This document shows, one piece after another, positions 3,327 through 47,412 of a stretch of DNA of 64,000 bases. Positions within the stretch are counted from its first letter, which is position 1, and each line of letters begins with the position of its first letter. The notes under the pieces are model-generated. The model saw only the letters and a program-made list of their open reading frames with translations, was not told the DNA's origin and did no database searches. The position numbers and the translations under genes were made by a program. This stretch comes from a virus, in IMG/VR virus record IMGVR_UViG_3300027770_000025, positions 186,001 to 250,000 of that record. One strand, written 5' to 3'.

Positions 3327-5261
3327 TTAATTTTTTCTTTTTGCAAATATTACTCCGTGATCTGCATTGTTATCAACCTCTTTTTGTATTAATTCATCAT
3401 AAAGCTTAACCGCAAAATCAGCGCTAACTAATTTTTCTATTAACATATTGACCCTTCCGTCGTTATTGTCATGGAATTCTAGAATTATATTTTTAGCTTT
3501 AGCTAGAGATGCAATATCAGTATTACTAAGAAGATCATATTCAGCACCCTCTATATCAATCTTTAGAAGATCAACTGAATCATGATCAGACATCAAAGAG
3601 TTTAGTGTTTGCGATTTAACCAAAACAGTATTATCACCTATAGTTTTAGCAATGCTTGAAACTAGGCTGTTTCCTGGATCTACACTAAGATTAACATCCT
3701 CGCCATCCGAGGTCAAAGCAATCTCACTGAAGATAACATTTGGATTTTCTGAGTGCATTTTTCTGAATTCATTAGCGGCTAGGTGATTTGGTTCTATTGA
3801 GATAACTTTTTCAAACCCTACATCTAAACAATACTCTGTGAATAATCCAACATTAGCACCAACGTCAATAGCAACTTTCTTTTGGAATATGCTATCGGTC
3901 ATAATGTCATATATTCGGTCAGTGAAGAACTCTTCATAGTTTCTAAATATAGGATCTTTCGTATCCAATCTGCAAGTCTTCTTTGTTACGTTCCTAAATC
4001 TTATTATAGATTCTGAGATCACCTCTTCTCCCTGTTTATATTCAATTAAGAATCCACCAAAATTTGCATTATTTTGGAAATCGTAAATGTGGATGGGCAC
4101 TGGGATTATCCAATATGATCCACCTAAACTAAAGTTTATAGTGCAATGAAATATATTAGAACCGCTGTCCACATCCTTAACATAAACATCACAATCGAGT
4201 TCCTTTATGTTTCTTGAATCCCCTATATAAACTATATCAAGTTTATTATCCCATGGAGAAAATTTATGTATAAACATATCGCTTTTATTATTCATAGCTA
4301 ATTCTTTTTTAAGTTCTAATATTTCCCTTATCTGGTTTGCTATCCCTGTTTTATCATCACTTATAAAAAACTTTAGAGTGTTTGATTCCTGATACATGTC
4401 AACGTAGACAGGGAGATTTCTTAGGAGCAATGGGGCTTTCCAAGATATTGCTTCTTTGATAACAAGAGGGCTTGTTTCTTTATCATTAAATAAAGGTATT
4501 GACGGGAATATAACAAGATCCGCTGCCTGATAGAATAGATCTACGTCATCTCTTTCTCCCCATACCTTACAATTGCTGGGAAGATTGCTTGTGATAGGAT
4601 TCCAATACCATTTAAAATTATCAGCCATTGTACCGATGAAATGAAATTCCACTTCTGGTAGTAGCCTTGCAATCTCTGCTGTTTCCCTTTGATTTTTTCT
4701 TGGTGTAAATATACCTATTTGGATTACGTGTTTCTTATTAGGATCCAGCCCTAATTTTGCTCTGCTATCTAAATAATCTCTTACAGGTTTCTTAGCTATC
4801 TCGTGCTCGATAACTTCTATGGGTACTTTAAGATCTCTTAACAGATTAACCTGCCAAGGGCTAACGACCACAAATTTATCGGGAAGGTATATTTTTTCTT
4901 CAGGGGAAACCGATGAATCGTGCATGGTCTCAAATATTTTATATTCTCTGTCGTCGGAGAATATAATATCCAAAAGATGGTGACTTAAGAATTGCTCGCA
5001 TGGTTCTTCGAAATGTATAATATCAGGTTTCATCTCCTTAATCGCCTTGATAAGAATATCCTCAGGCTTTTCCCCCCATGTTATTATTCTCTCCGCACCA
5101 AGTATGGATTCTATTCTTTTCCTGATTGTATTATAGGAAAACTCGTGTCTTTTTTCAAAAACCCAAACTTCAGCTTCGTCTTTGATTTTGTCTATTTTAT
5201 TCTTTAAATATTCCGGCATTCCTCCGGTAGACAGATATGGTACAATATAAAAAACTCTCAA
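3327..5261 (-). CDS. GT4 glycosyltransferase fused to FkbM methyltransferase
   Basis: 644 residues from a TTG start directly at the beginning of the GT-B fold (RVFYIVPYLSTGGMPEYL). The first ~330 residues are a GT4-type glycosyltransferase; the nucleotide-sugar site region includes DKETSPLVIKEAISWKAPLL. From about residue 465 there is an FkbM-family SAM-dependent methyltransferase: AIDVGANVGLFTEYC (SAM-binding motif I), ISIEPN, and LLKIDIEGAEYDLL. The fusion suggests addition and O-methylation of a sugar on the same glycan. Seven nucleotides before the start is a TATAAATA identical to the T4 late promoter consensus. Substrate is unknown; decoration of virion proteins or host surface glycans are both possible. 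Confidence 0.85.
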   Translation of the reverse strand: MRVFYIVPYLSTGGMPEYLKNKIDKIKDEAEVWVFEKRHEFSYNTIRKRIESILGAERIITWGEKPEDILIKAIKEMKPDIIHFEEPCEQFLSHHLLDIIFSDDREYKIFETMHDSSVSPEEKIYLPDKFVVVSPWQVNLLRDLKVPIEVIEHEIAKKPVRDYLDSRAKLGLDPNKKHVIQIGIFTPRKNQRETAEIARLLPEVEFHFIGTMADNFKWYWNPITSNLPSNCKVWGERDDVDLFYQAADLVIFPSIPLFNDKETSPLVIKEAISWKAPLLLRNLPVYVDMYQESNTLKFFISDDKTGIANQIREILELKKELAMNNKSDMFIHKFSPWDNKLDIVYIGDSRNIKELDCDVYVKDVDSGSNIFHCTINFSLGGSYWIIPVPIHIYDFQNNANFGGFLIEYKQGEEVISESIIRFRNVTKKTCRLDTKDPIFRNYEEFFTDRIYDIMTDSIFQKKVAIDVGANVGLFTEYCLDVGFEKVISIEPNHLAANEFRKMHSENPNVIFSEIALTSDGEDVNLSVDPGNSLVSSIAKTIGDNTVLVKSQTLNSLMSDHDSVDLLKIDIEGAEYDLLSNTDIASLAKAKNIILEFHDNNDGRVNMLIEKLVSADFAVKLYDELIQKEVDNNADHGVIFAKRKN

Positions 5262-14147: not shown

Positions 14148-14183
14148 AAAAAAAATCCTTGTCAATTAGATTAACAAGGATTT
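14148..14183 (-). terminator. Terminator of the tmRNA gene
   Basis: AAATCCTTGT (14153-14162) pairs with ACAAGGATTT (14174-14183), followed on the minus strand by a T-run. It begins five bases after the tmRNA 3' end. Confidence 0.85.
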
Positions 14184-14187
14184 CGTG

Positions 14188-14650
14188 TGGATCTGCAGGG
14201 AGTCGAACCCTGGTCTCCTTCAGTTAATACTAAGAATTCATTCACAGGCTTAGAAAGTTTTTTATAAACTTACAAACTAATCGGGTTTATGACACCAGCA
14301 AACATTTTGCTGTCTTTTAGTGACTTACAGCGTCAGTCAGAGAACTTATACTAACAGCGATCTTAAGGGTATTGATGTTATCTCAGGGTTACTGATCATA
14401 AGCTCTACTTTTTTGGTACTGTTAACCCTTTTTCCCAACGTCACATTTTTTTAAACGGAGTAAGTGAGACTCCGGAGGTTATGCAGCGTAAGCGTACTCA
14501 ACCTCAGTTACAGGAGTACCAAACGAGTTGATAGCGTCCCAAACTGATTTTTTGCCATTTATAGCTTTATATAGGTTATTAAAGTGTTTCCAATACTAAC
14601 ACTGCCTGCATTCAAAGAACTACGCCTGCGGATCAATTCCGGTCAGACCC
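14188..14650 (-). ncRNA. ssrA: tmRNA (transfer-messenger RNA)
   Basis: The 5' end GGGTCTG (14650-14644) pairs with CAGATCC (14195-14189) as a 7-bp acceptor stem with one G-U pair. The 3' part has a perfect T-arm CAGGG-TTCGACT-CCCTG just inside it. CCA is not encoded and must be added. An Ala codon GCT occurs at nucleotide 86, where resume codons usually sit, and starts an open frame ending TEVEYAYAA then TAA (about 28 residues; GGC three codons later is an alternative start). The C-terminal YAYAA resembles the degradation-tag end (Y)ALAA. After the stop come further stems expected for H5 and pseudoknots. tmRNA rescues stalled ribosomes and tags proteins for proteolysis. The ~463 nt length is longer than the 363 nt of E. 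coli. Confidence 0.92.
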
Positions 14651-39977: not shown

Positions 39978-41867
39978 TTATTGCTTGATTTCTTCGTACT
40001 CTACATCTTGTAAATCTTCCGCACTATCAGAAGTTTGTTCGGAAGGGGATTCAGTTGCTTGAGCTTGCTGATCTGCTGCATATACAGCAGAAGCTATTAC
40101 ATTCATCTTATCAGAAAGAATCTTCATTGTGGATTCGATAGCATCTAAATCGTCACCGTCCATGATTTTTCTTAATTCTTCTATTTTATCAGAGATCTCT
40201 TGTTTATCTGAATCACTTACCTTGTCGCCAAAGTCGCTAATCGCTTTTTCCATCTGAAAACACATAGAAGAAGCTTCATTATAAAGCTGAGATTTTCTTA
40301 ATCTCTCCTTATCTGCCTCTGCATTTGCTTCAGCATCATTTTTCATCTTTTCAATTTCTTCATCAGTTAGCTTAGATCCTGATTCAATTCTAATATTTTG
40401 AACTTTACCTGTTCCCTGATCCTTAGCAGAAACCTTAATAATACCGTTGGCATCAATATCAAATGTAACTTCGATCTTTGGAATACCCCTCATTGAAGGC
40501 GGAATATCAGTTAACTGAAATCTGCCAAGAGATCTGTTATCTGTAGCCATTGCTCTTTCCCCTTGTAATACGTGTATCTCCACTGCTGGTTGGTTATCAA
40601 CAGCTGTAGAAAATACCTCGCTCTTTGTTACTGGTATAGTTGTGTTGGATTCGATCAATTTAGTAAATACACCACCTACTGTTTCTATTCCTAGAGAAAG
40701 AGGTGTGATGTCTAACAAAAGAACGTCTTTAATATCTCCAGCTAGCACTCCTCCTTGGATAGCAGCTCCAATAGCTACCACCTCATCAGGATTAACGCCC
40801 TTGGAAGGTTTCTTACCGAAAAGTTTTTCAACTTCTTCCTGTACCTTAGGTATCCTTGTAGATCCGCCTACTAAAATAACCTCATCAACCTGAGCAGCTG
40901 TTAAACCTGCATCTTTCAATGCTTTCTTACAAGGTTCTAATGTTCTTTTAATTAGATCCCCGCACATAGACTCGAATTGAGCTTTAGATAATTTCTTTAC
41001 GAAATGTTTAGGCCCATTTGAATCTGCACTTAAATAAGGAAGGTTAATCTCTGTCTCATTAGAAGCAGAAAGTTCAACTTTTGCTTTCTCCGCACCTTCT
41101 CTAATTCTTTGATAAGCCGTAGGGTCTTTAGAAGCATCCACACCGGTTTCATCTTTAAATGCAGCAACTACCCAATCGATAATCATTTCATCAAAGTTGT
41201 CACCACCTAAGTGGGTGTCACCGTTGGTGGAAAGAACCTCAAATACTCCAGATCCTATTTCTAGGATTGAAACGTCAAATGTACCGCCACCTAAGTCATA
41301 CACTGCAACCTTAAGATCTTTGTCACCTTTATCCAGGCCATAAGCTAAAGCTGCTGCTGTTGGTTCGTTAATAATACGGAGTACTTCTAATCCTGCAATT
41401 TCACCAGCCTCTTTAGTTGCTTGTCTTTGGCTATCGTTGAAATAAGCAGGAACTGTAATTACCGCTTGGGTAACAGCTTCTCCTAAATACTCCTCTGCAG
41501 TTCTTTTTAGATTCTGTAAAATTATTGCCGAAATTTCTTGGGGTACGTATGTTTTTCCGTTTGCTTCTACTACTACCTTATCACCCTTTTCTTTTTTTAC
41601 TTTATAAGACATTTTACCTGCCTCATTTTTAATCTCCGAATACTTAGATCCAATAAACCTTTTTACTGAATAGATAGTATTCTCTGGGTTAGTAACCGCT
41701 TGTCTCTTTGCAGAGTCTCCGATTCTAATGTCACCATCTTTAAAAGAAACCACACTAGGTGTAGTTCTTTTTCCCTCCTGGTTAACAATAACTGAGGGTG
41801 TGCTTCCTTCAATTAGGGAAACACATGAATTTGTTGTTCCTAGGTCAATACCAATTACTTTTGCCAT
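39978..41867 (-). CDS. dnaK: DnaK (Hsp70) chaperone
   Basis: 629 residues, full length. Nucleotide-binding domain: [72 protein letters not shown]. The linker [19 protein letters not shown] is followed by the substrate domain and a disordered acidic tail ending DVEYEEIKQ. It folds proteins with DnaJ and a nucleotide exchange factor; GrpE is not seen in the window. The gene sits between two terminators, so it is a single-gene unit. A complete dnaK in a phage is rare. Whole-length similarity to bacterial DnaK suggests host acquisition. Confidence 0.97.
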
Positions 41868-42032
41868 TTGTTTTAAATTTATTATTTTTAGTTGATTTCT
41901 GAGAAAAGATTCCGTTATAGAATCATATTTCCTGTAATAAATTAATCAAAATTAGATCCGAAAGAAATTTTTAGTCATATTGTCATTTCATTCCCAAATA
42001 AAGTGACTTTTTGTCTACCGAAGCCCACAAAA

Positions 42033-42056
42033 AAACCCGATCTACCGACCGGGTTT
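42033..42056 (-). terminator. Terminator upstream of dnaK
   Basis: AAACCCG pairs with CGGGTTT, with T-run on the minus strand, 18 bp after the 42074-42532 gene. It separates that gene from dnaK, whose promoter must lie at 41868-42030. Confidence 0.8.
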
Positions 42057-42073
42057 GTCATATCAATGAAATA

Positions 42074-42532
42074 TTATTTCTTCTTTCTTTTCTTTACGAA
42101 TTCAAGATAATTATCAACAGTCTTTGCTTTCTTTTTCTTAGCTGCTCCTGTTCCTGCAGTAAGACTTGTGAATTTGTCACCGGACCCATTATTAGTTGAA
42201 TCATAAAATCCGCTATTAGTTGCACCTGCTGAGCTAGGTGGAGATGGATTACCCATTCCCGATACGTTGCCCAATGTAGCTAATCCCGGAGCTGGAGCTG
42301 CTGCTCCCATATCCTCATTCATTTTATCTTCGTCCATGCCTTTAGCTTTAAGATATTCTTTTAGCTGCCAGCTTTCTACACAGTAATCATTCTCATTTAG
42401 CCATTCGGTAACGGCTTTAACGTATTGTTCTGAAGATTCGCAATCACAAATAATGTCATCTAATTCTTCTTCCTCATCCATCATGCAGATTAAGGTTTTT
42501 CCATTTGGTAATTGTCCTGTTGGGTGAAACAT
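42074..42532 (-). CDS. Hypothetical protein, low-complexity middle, basic tail
   Basis: 152 residues. The N-terminal ~70 residues are acidic (MMDEEEELDDIICDCE), the middle is Gly/Ala/Ser/Pro-rich, and the C-terminus is AKTVDNYLEFVKKRKKK. The YLEF tail resembles the leader motif seen elsewhere at N-termini. No known family. It could be a head or DNA-associated protein. Confidence 0.7.
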   Translation of the reverse strand: MFHPTGQLPNGKTLICMMDEEEELDDIICDCESSEQYVKAVTEWLNENDYCVESWQLKEYLKAKGMDEDKMNEDMGAAAPAPGLATLGNVSGMGNPSPPSSAGATNSGFYDSTNNGSGDKFTSLTAGTGAAKKKKAKTVDNYLEFVKKRKKK

Positions 42533-42536
42533 ATTA

Positions 42537-42767
42537 TTAGTCTAAGGTTTGTTTTATATTGGTTTTAAAAATACGAACTATATTGCCGTCCGGATTCTTA
42601 GTGATATATCCTATTATATCATTGTATATATCATATATGGGAGACTGTATTAGTAGTTTTCTGTTTAGATTGTCCAATACCCATTTGTTTAGGATCTTGC
42701 TTTCCTCTTTTGACATATCTCTTTTAACAGACTCAAATTCAAAACTGCTTCCTGTACAATTACACAT
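42537..42767 (-). CDS. Small hypothetical protein
   Basis: 76 residues, beginning MCNCTGSSFEFESVKRD. The Cys at 2 and 4 recall lipid or metal attachment but no signal peptide is present. Its start touches the stop of the leader-bearing gene at 42767-43192. Confidence 0.65.
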   Translation of the reverse strand: MCNCTGSSFEFESVKRDMSKEESKILNKWVLDNLNRKLLIQSPIYDIYNDIIGYITKNPDGNIVRIFKTNIKQTLD

Positions 42768-43192
42768 TATCTATAATTTCCTCTTTCTTGTTTGCGTTTA
42801 ATATATTGCCAAAGGTATCTTAATCCCTTTGCATACTCAGAAGGTCTGCTAAAAGGCTTGCCGAAGTCTTTTATATCGTTTCCGTTACCCTCCATTCTTT
42901 CGCCGGGATTATCCTCATTCTTTAGTGGATTATATCTTCTAACCTTTCCTGTTGGGTGGATAGTATAGAATACTTTATCGTGGCCCTTCTCGTTTTTATT
43001 GTTGGTTACCCTAATAAATTTTAGAGTGTTGTTGATTTCCTGCTGATGTGATGTATCCTCTTTGAAACCAAGTTCTATTAGTCTCTTATAGTCAACTGTC
43101 TTTCTAACAAGATCCAGGTTAAGGGATCTTCTAGAATCTGATTTGTATTCCTCATCCGGACTGTATTTTTCATATTCTAATAGGTACTTCAT
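42767..43192 (-). CDS. Leader-bearing hypothetical protein
   Basis: 141 residues. Leader MKYLLEYEKYSPDEE fits the M-K-x-L-x-x-Y-x-x-Y form. The body is basic with RLIELGFKEDTSHQQEI and ends in a basic tail (RKQERGNYR). A TATATAT lies a few nt before the ATG. No enzyme motif recognised; a basic capsid protein is possible. Confidence 0.7.
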   Translation of the reverse strand: MKYLLEYEKYSPDEEYKSDSRRSLNLDLVRKTVDYKRLIELGFKEDTSHQQEINNTLKFIRVTNNKNEKGHDKVFYTIHPTGKVRRYNPLKNEDNPGERMEGNGNDIKDFGKPFSRPSEYAKGLRYLWQYIKRKQERGNYR

Positions 43193-45390: not shown

Positions 45391-47412
45391 TTATTTTTCT
45401 ATATTTTCTTTTAGAGATTCATTCTCAAGATCTGCGATTTCACTCTCAGTTACGATTTCCTCTGATTCTTTAATTTCCTTTCCGTTAATAGAAGAAAGTA
45501 AACTATTATAGAAAGAAGAAACACCCTGTGGTACAAGCTTTTTAAATGTTAGGAAATCTTCGTTCCCTATGGAATTTCTAATTTCTGTTCCTGTCGTTGT
45601 TCTTGGGGTTTCTACAACTTCTATTTCTTCAGAGAAATCACCGCCAGCTTTTTTAAGGTATTCCGATTGTTTCCTGTAATCATCCATCCTATCGTCGCCA
45701 GCTCCTATTAGATTAACTTTATACCCCATTTCTTTTGCTATACCATATATAACACCCAATAATCCTTTTTTAGTTGCAAAATATCCATTAATTAGTCCAG
45801 GATGATCCTTAACTACTGCTTCCATATACTTGCCAATAAGATCCTCATTGAATGGGGATTTGCCCGATTTATTATGACCTGGATTAACCACAGCAACTAT
45901 ACTAGGTAAACCGTTTTTCTCTTTAAGTAATTTTGCCATCTTTATATGACCATTATGGAAAGGCTGGAATCTGCCAACTAAAATATTAACCTCATTAAGC
46001 TCCGGTTTTTTGTCTTCCCCTTTTTCATCTAATTTAGGTTTTTCTATGTCCTTCTTAGTTGTATCTATTGTTTCCAAAGCCGAGATAAATTCATTATAAG
46101 AACAGAAGTGATCATCATCCTTAGTGCTCTCTTCAGATTCACTAGTTACGTAATCAACTTTTTTAGGCTTTAAATTATTCTTTTTAAAATCTAAAAATGA
46201 AGGCATTTCTGACTCCATTACAGCAGGTTTCTTTGTTTCAGTCTCTACCCTTTTTTCTATTGAGGATACGAGTAAATTGAATTGATCTATTATACCTGGT
46301 GTGATTATTCCACCTGCTCTCTTTTTAATCTTTCTGAATGAATTAAGAATAAGCTTAAATAGCGATTCAAAAGCTTCGTCTTCTTCCAAATACTTTAGTA
46401 CTCTTCTGTCAGTTATAAGATTCTTATTCAGTCTGAAGTCTTCTTTCTTTAAATATTCTGGCTCTTGAAAATCTGCCCCTTTGTATTTGTATCCATATTC
46501 GTCTAGGAATTTAGAGAAGACATCAGAAATAAAAGAAATGTATCTCTCATCTTCGGTAGTTCCTGCTATTTCAAAAGTATCCACACCATTTTCTAGTATG
46601 AAGTTCATCACATCCAGTATAGTAATACCTAAGAAATCGCTAGGTTTTTCCTCTGTTCTTTTCTTAGCCTTTGATTTTGCAAGCTCAGTAAAAACAGGAT
46701 CTACCATTTTAGATAAAATAGGTTCTTGCTCTTCATCTTCTTCCCCGAATCTAAATACTATTCCCTCTATTGGCTTTTCTAAATCTGCATTTAGAGCAGT
46801 CTTTTTTAATTCAGGATTAAGCACGCCAATAATAAATGCAACGAAACTTCTTGTTTTATATTCGGTTACGAGATCTTCGAAAGGTGTTCTTAAGAAATCG
46901 AGTATTCTATCTTTCTGCTCTTTTTCAAGATACCCCTGAAAAATGATAGGTGGTCTTTCTACCCCTAATAAATCTGCCCATGTATCTAGATCATTCTTAC
47001 CCTGAATTGTTCCCTTAGGTTTTCCACTTTGATCTTTCTTATGGATATAAGAAAGTATTAGATTATTCTTAGGAACTTCATCATAAACTATCTCAACCGG
47101 AGCACTATTTGCAAAGTACTCTAATCCAAATCTCCACCCCCTAGGGATTTCTTTTATTATGTGGGGAGGCAATGATTCGATATATTGTATGGGTTTTTCA
47201 TAGTACTTCATTAAAGTCCTATCTACCAGGGTTATTGGATTTCTCTGATCTCTTTTATAAAAATTAAATTTTCCTGTTTCGCTATCTCTTTCAACAATGA
47301 AAGCAGACCCGTCCATTTTCTCGTTAACGGTAACATAAGTGTTGAAAAGATTATCGATGAAATCTTTTCCCTTCTTATTATAGAGATCATATAAATGACT
47401 AATTCCTGCCAT
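45391..47412 (-). CDS. RNA-ligase-like domain fused to HxGH nucleotidylyltransferase
   Basis: 673 residues. Residues ~1-270 look like a covalent nucleotidyltransferase/RNA ligase: motif I VNEKMDGSAFIV with the adenylated Lys near 33, motif III GWRFGLEYFA, motif IV IEGIVFRFGEE. Residues ~465-650 form a Rossmann nucleotidylyltransferase: NILVGRFQPFHNGHIK (HxGH), and TTGTEIRNSI in the place of ISSTxIR. This half resembles NMN adenylyltransferase or related CTP/ATP transferases. A linker of ~200 residues includes MPSFLDFKKN, akin to the leader motif. Joining an RNA ligase to an NMN/nucleotide transferase suggests RNA-end or NAD-cap chemistry; that is inference. Confidence 0.75.
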   Translation of the reverse strand: MAGISHLYDLYNKKGKDFIDNLFNTYVTVNEKMDGSAFIVERDSETGKFNFYKRDQRNPITLVDRTLMKYYEKPIQYIESLPPHIIKEIPRGWRFGLEYFANSAPVEIVYDEVPKNNLILSYIHKKDQSGKPKGTIQGKNDLDTWADLLGVERPPIIFQGYLEKEQKDRILDFLRTPFEDLVTEYKTRSFVAFIIGVLNPELKKTALNADLEKPIEGIVFRFGEEDEEQEPILSKMVDPVFTELAKSKAKKRTEEKPSDFLGITILDVMNFILENGVDTFEIAGTTEDERYISFISDVFSKFLDEYGYKYKGADFQEPEYLKKEDFRLNKNLITDRRVLKYLEEDEAFESLFKLILNSFRKIKKRAGGIITPGIIDQFNLLVSSIEKRVETETKKPAVMESEMPSFLDFKKNNLKPKKVDYVTSESEESTKDDDHFCSYNEFISALETIDTTKKDIEKPKLDEKGEDKKPELNEVNILVGRFQPFHNGHIKMAKLLKEKNGLPSIVAVVNPGHNKSGKSPFNEDLIGKYMEAVVKDHPGLINGYFATKKGLLGVIYGIAKEMGYKVNLIGAGDDRMDDYRKQSEYLKKAGGDFSEEIEVVETPRTTTGTEIRNSIGNEDFLTFKKLVPQGVSSFYNSLLSSINGKEIKESEEIVTESEIADLENESLKENIEK

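Follow-up and report, generated by a model that had tools for sequence, protein, structure and literature searches.

A giant-phage tmRNA with a conserved long tag, encoded in one genome with SmpB, ClpP and a ClpC-like unfoldase

A locus in a giant-phage genome raises the question of why tmRNA genes are carried by phages. The window analysed here is a stretch of 64,000 nt (bases 186001-250000 of a 348,582-base IMG/VR virus record in which a portal and a major head protein are encoded), and ARAGORN reported one RNA gene in it, a tmRNA on the minus strand (Table 1). Its tag is conserved, phage-specific and distinct from that of the presumed host, which makes the question directly testable. In addition, candidate partners for tagging and degradation are present in the same genome, and clpP and smpB are adjacent in relatives.

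Table 1. Coordinates and sequences of the tmRNA features, associated genes and related tags. Positions refer to the window unless another record is named.
Feature	Position	Strand	Basis or detail
Phage tmRNA gene (ssrA), one-piece	14187..14650	-	ARAGORN; RF00023, 62.6 bits over full model; relatives
Acceptor stem 5' half, GGGUCUG	14644..14650	-	Pairs 7/7 with 14189-14195 (CAGAUCC), including G3·U70
T-arm, CAGGG-UUCGACU-CCCUG	14196..14212	-	RF00023 alignment and sequence
Pseudoknot 1	14569..14603	-	Stem 1: 14603-14598 with 14588-14583; stem 2: 14596-14590 with 14575-14569
Tag reading frame, GKKSVWDAINSFGTPVTEVEYAYAA, 25 codons	14482..14556	-	Rfam alignment; frame and peptide conserved in relatives
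Tag stop codon TAA	14479..14481	-	Sequence; relatives' alignment
Intrinsic terminator hairpin, 15 bp with U run	14152..14184	-	-15.8 kcal/mol, z -6.5
SmpB, 141 aa	record 121959-122384	-	NCBIfam equivalog models
ClpP	record 123253-123936	-	PF00574, Pfam 192 bits
ClpC-like unfoldase, 691 aa	record 40841-42916	-	Two AAA modules, UVR motif
Ribosomal protein bS21, 65 aa	G000:C1 about 40663-40860 (L375 1468-1665)	-	Overlaps 3' end of ClpC-like gene
G001 tag			GKKSVWDVINMFGAPVAEVEYAYAA, 25 codons
G002 tag			GKKSVWDVINAFGTPVNEVEYAYAA, 25 codons
G021 tag			GKKSVWDVINAFGTPVAEVELAYAA, 25 codons
G059 tag			GNKNVWDAINAFGTPATEIELAYAA, 25 codons
G004 tag			GKKANVWEAINKFGAPVTTKQAIAA, 25 codons
Tags of distant pair G037 / G049			AKVELSTWTVEDALAFVDGEYAVAA / ANVELSTWTIEDALAFVDGEFALAA
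Tags of distant pair G030 / G031			GDVYRNMEVAGVLATSKVAA / GNVYNNMEVAGLLATSEVAVA
Tags of distant pair G038 / G042			GNELSVDENFLANATCGVFAGEAMAA / DNEFNVDKNFLETSTVEVFEGEVAFA

The covariance-model check proposed in the first-pass annotation came out positive: the match to Rfam RF00023 spans the whole model (1-374) and exceeds the gathering score of 47. The complete acceptor stem, the T-arm and the gene's own terminator, all read from the letters in that annotation, were likewise recovered. The acceptor stem is followed by a discriminator A at 14188, and the 3' CCA is not encoded in the gene. The G3·U70 pair, the mark of alanine tRNAs, is present in 18/18 phage tmRNAs compared. The folding energy of the terminator hairpin was matched by 0/200 shuffles; a simple terminator scan did not detect this hairpin, probably because its U run lies inside the stem. 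The outcome for the pseudoknots is divided, in that pseudoknot 1 forms with 12 pairs and 100% standard pairing in 6/6 relatives tested (slid controls pair in 31-63% of cells), whereas the middle of the tmRNA, i.e., the region of pseudoknots 2-4, aligns poorly to the model. Covariation in pseudoknot 1, seen in few sequences, comprises a single pair with compensation on both sides and two pairs that changed on one side only. By sequence and anatomy, the gene is a real phage-borne tmRNA.

The Rfam model alignment places the resume codon GGC at 14556-14554, nt 95 of the tmRNA and twelve bases past pseudoknot 1. The long frame ending in YAYAA and TAA, as first annotated, is thus present, but the start assigned to it at GCT, nt 86 (28 codons), is three codons off and is ruled out by the same alignment. 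The tag called by ARAGORN, EVEYAYAA, is a truncated call that comprises only the last 8 residues of the 25-residue tag. Since known tmRNA tags span 8-35 residues (PMC8012679), the earlier description of this tag as longer than usual applies relative to the presumed host group, and not to tmRNAs overall.

The closest cellular SmpB proteins belong to Bacteroidota (identity up to 60%), and the host is presumed from this kinship to be a member of that phylum. Among host-like Bacteroidota genomes, 30/32 contain a tmRNA, and most of those with a plausible ARAGORN call have tags of 8-10 residues, e.g., GENNYALAA, GNTQYAMAA and GEYNYAMAA; ARAGORN gave no tag call in four genomes, and in two its tag was a long frame far downstream that was taken as a miscall. 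Compared with these ssrA tags, the phage tag is almost three times as long (25 vs about 9 residues), with similar ends: it retains the host-like G start and YAYAA end, with ~16 residues between them. It therefore looks like a host-type tag into which ~16 residues have been inserted. The AYAA end is close to host ALAA/AMAA, and host ClpXP might well degrade the phage tag too.

A 25-codon tag was found in six further records on separate contigs (G060, G001, G002, G021, G059 and G004), that of G060 being identical to the window tag. More distant giant-phage contigs carry other long tags, each conserved within a pair. As a 25-codon open frame is likely to arise by chance and is weak evidence alone, an excess of synonymous change was chosen as the test, using four independent pairs (window-G059, G037-G049, G030-G031 and G038-G042). 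Summed over these tags, synonymous change affected 30.2/66.3 sites (pS 0.46) and non-synonymous change 36.8/215.7 (pN 0.17), an excess with a Fisher p of about 1e-5, which indicates that the tag is read over its entire length and is under selection as a peptide. The excess is carried by the more distant pairs and is small or absent among the closest relatives (window-G001, pS 0.06 and pN 0.09). A [STND]-x-x-[DE] cap with hydrophobic residues after it, a pattern picked post hoc, occurs in 9/9 tag groups vs 3.4 expected by shuffling; this motif, found in all long-tag groups tested, resembles an N-capping box. Most phage tags, including the window tag, have a hydrophobic -AA end, which is typical of degrons, and some lack the terminal AA (...LAV, ...EIA, ...PAAV).

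Further tags were encountered along the way. G041 (L200 1501-1903) contains a tmRNA with a 36-residue tag, GNVITNEVGSKADVLAVLKTVKAKPSVAQVEELEIA, and in LR756508 (L361 1501-1947) the tmRNA has, as judged by eye, an apparent tag of 36 residues, GVNNADYESAGFTAEDFAQMDGESLYHGSERKPAAV, in which TAEDFAQMDGE resembles TVEDALAFVDGE of G037. In a distant blastn search of the tmRNA against isolate phages, LR745206 was the only meaningful match; its candidate tmRNA (L109 about 4700-5060), which has no Rfam score, has an atypical T-loop, GGCGGTA, and an apparent tag of 29 residues. This tag was left out of the synonymous test, although the post hoc motif count includes it. For LR756504 the tag was read by eye in an ambiguous frame and was left out, and high-scoring tmRNAs with short tags in the small SmpB contigs G045, G052 and G054, which look like bacterial flanks, were not counted.

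The same record encodes proteins that could act with this RNA. Its SmpB scores above both NCBIfam equivalog cut-offs (159.7 vs 119.1 bits for TIGR00086, and 157.7 vs 130 bits) and has its C-terminal tail, being aligned up to residue 139/141. The ClpP is full-length and keeps the catalytic Ser, His and Asp regions in the alignment; its best equivalog score is below the NCBIfam cut-off (225 vs 361 bits), so it is regarded as a divergent ClpP. ClpX was not found as a full gene, and the search for it exposed the ClpC-like gene instead. This unfoldase is nearest to solved ClpC (759 bits), ahead of ClpB (666 bits), and carries MGF, by alignment only, at the loop position that we take to serve in docking ClpP. 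It is named ClpC-like only, because a Clp_N match, i.e., the N-terminal adaptor domain, is absent. The overlap of the bS21 gene with the end of the ClpC-like gene couples two translation/proteostasis genes. Elsewhere, a 485-aa protein at window 16577-18034 matches the PHROG named ribosomal protein S6 glutaminyl transferase and is possibly another ribosome modifier, and ARAGORN called a tRNA with a two-base anticodon (tt) at G000:C1 about 46419-46493, minus strand (L087 8419-8493).

In this record, one gene lies between SmpB and ClpP, which resembles a nucleotide-sugar dehydrogenase (named from sequence only). In G002, G021, G022, G023 and G059, clpP is separated from smpB by 24-36 bp, both on the same strand. 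The distance between tmRNA and clpP is about 63 bp in G038 and about 0.6 kb, with one intervening gene, in G042; these two records were counted as one lineage on account of their common tag type. The tmRNA, ClpP and SmpB genes lie together on each of two independent contigs, G002 (134 kb) and G059 (154 kb), so a single faulty assembly does not account for the combination. ClpC-like relatives occur in G030, G038, G040, G043 and G056; no ClpC-like gene was detected in several tmRNA-bearing relatives, most of which are fragments. As records were picked by SmpB similarity, co-occurrence counts are conditional on it. In public records of giant phages, SmpB and ClpP occur with ClpC-like genes (LR745206 and LR756502) or with a tmRNA (Lak phages). 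The tag in the SmpB/ClpP-bearing Lak phages L363 (Lak-A2) and L364 (Lak-C1) is short (DDEIDFRMAA), so the protein kit can do without a long tag.

The occurrence of tmRNA, SmpB, ClpP and ClpC-like genes in one genome suggests a private tag-and-destroy pathway. The presence of the three protein genes also lends indirect support to the idea, put forward in the first-pass annotation, that the RNA may act in rescue and/or in directing peptides to a chosen protease. On balance, it is favoured here that a giant Bacteroidota phage has a working rescue system of tmRNA and phage SmpB, and that its long tag passes proteins to the phage ClpC-like protein and ClpP or to phage-controlled degradation. In this scheme, infection would break messages and strand ribosomes; the phage tmRNA would be transcribed, charged with alanine by the host enzyme and bound by phage SmpB, freeing ribosomes stuck on broken mRNA and adding the 25-residue tag to the unfinished proteins. 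The tag, being unlike the host's, would then mark the fragments for the phage ClpC-like protein and ClpP, or for host ClpXP; alternatively, phage factors may at least control degradation of the tagged proteins. Transcription, charging, use of the phage SmpB and delivery to phage ClpCP are steps that we infer. The parts of this scheme differ in strength: the phage tmRNA-SmpB pair is very probably functional in ribosome rescue, whereas it is plausible, though somewhat short of an even chance, that the tag is delivered to the Clp protease of the phage itself. A more specific version, in which giant phages have a private degradation channel where a conserved short helix in the long tags is read by a phage unfoldase or adaptor, parting phage-tagged from host-tagged proteins, is speculative and rather unlikely. 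If the tag does feed the phage's own protease, phages would replace a whole host quality-control pathway, beyond one RNA.

The alternative that survives best, although we hold it to be the less likely account, is that of rescue only, with extra tmRNA and SmpB supplied for many broken messages, host ClpXP clearing the tag, and the extra middle being a tolerated spacer. It agrees with the greater dependence of cells on rescue than on degradation (PMC8012679), with the host-like tag ends (GENNYALAA vs ...EYAYAA) and with the short tags retained by Lak phages alongside SmpB and ClpP. A pure spacer, however, would not preserve amino acids as the tags do (pN below pS), and this phage also encodes ClpP and a ClpC-like unfoldase, with clpP linked to smpB in relatives. 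Improbable, to a further degree, is a long tag that is no degradation signal and that protects truncated products against host ClpXP or assigns them a different fate, e.g., where host degradation is blocked during takeover: the tags ending without AA would fit it, but the degron-like end of most tags, that of the window included, and the proteases brought by the phage speak against it.

It is very improbable that the tmRNA uses host SmpB and proteases while the phage ClpP is a capsid maturation protease unrelated to tagging. The best PHROGs matches of ClpP are indeed head maturation proteases, but NCBIfam assigns it 193-225 bits with true ClpP models vs 67-71 bits with head-protease models, and clpP is located about 180 kb from the head genes, near smpB. 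Moreover, a neighbour of the major head protein, 654 aa long, has matches to head proteases of the T4 type (PHROG 207; Pfam S77), and this separate prohead protease makes a capsid role for ClpP unlikely. Lastly, a stray cellular tmRNA gained by chance and functionless in the phage is disfavoured to the point of near dismissal: mobile elements often integrate at tmRNA genes (PMC12595487), but six related records keep this one, together with a phage-specific tag, of a length unlike host tags, and a conserved pseudoknot.

For each of phage tmRNA, SmpB and Clp proteases, there are earlier reports from huge phages. Genes for tmRNA are found in the genomes of mycobacteriophages Bxz1, Cali and Wildcat, Bacillus phage G and the marine methylophage Melnitz (PMC4131195, PMC9004378), as in the present phage though with different hosts; a keyword look-up in these papers found no description of conserved long tags or of a phage SmpB-ClpP-ClpC set. 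Huge phages carry tmRNA and SmpB (Al-Shayeb et al. 2020, PMC7162821), the same two components as here, and in the main text of that paper, by keyword look-up, ClpP was unmentioned and a tag analysis was not found. Large freshwater Bacteroidetes phages with bS21 and Clp protease (PMC9723584, where tmRNA is unmentioned) have both genes in common with this record, a likeness by gene content, and Clp proteins are known from jumbo phages (PMC6102473, PMC9723584, PMC12619734). No paper on tmRNA with SmpB and ClpP in phages came up in a literature search that covered a minority of subscription papers. The conserved long tags and the complete linked tag-and-degrade set thus seem to be new, not having been found in the searchable literature.

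With ClpCP of S. aureus and B. subtilis, the phage unfoldase shares two AAA domains, a UVR motif and a ClpP partner, and it differs in the missing N-terminal adaptor domain. With the Bacteroidota-type bacterial one-piece tmRNA (RF00023), the phage RNA has in common the tRNA-like end with G3·U70, pseudoknot 1, the GGC resume codon, and the tag frame and stop. It departs from this type in its low score (62.6 bits against 98-183), its central pseudoknots, which are not recognised, the lack of an encoded 3' CCA, and a tag of 25 residues instead of the 8-10 seen in host-like genomes.
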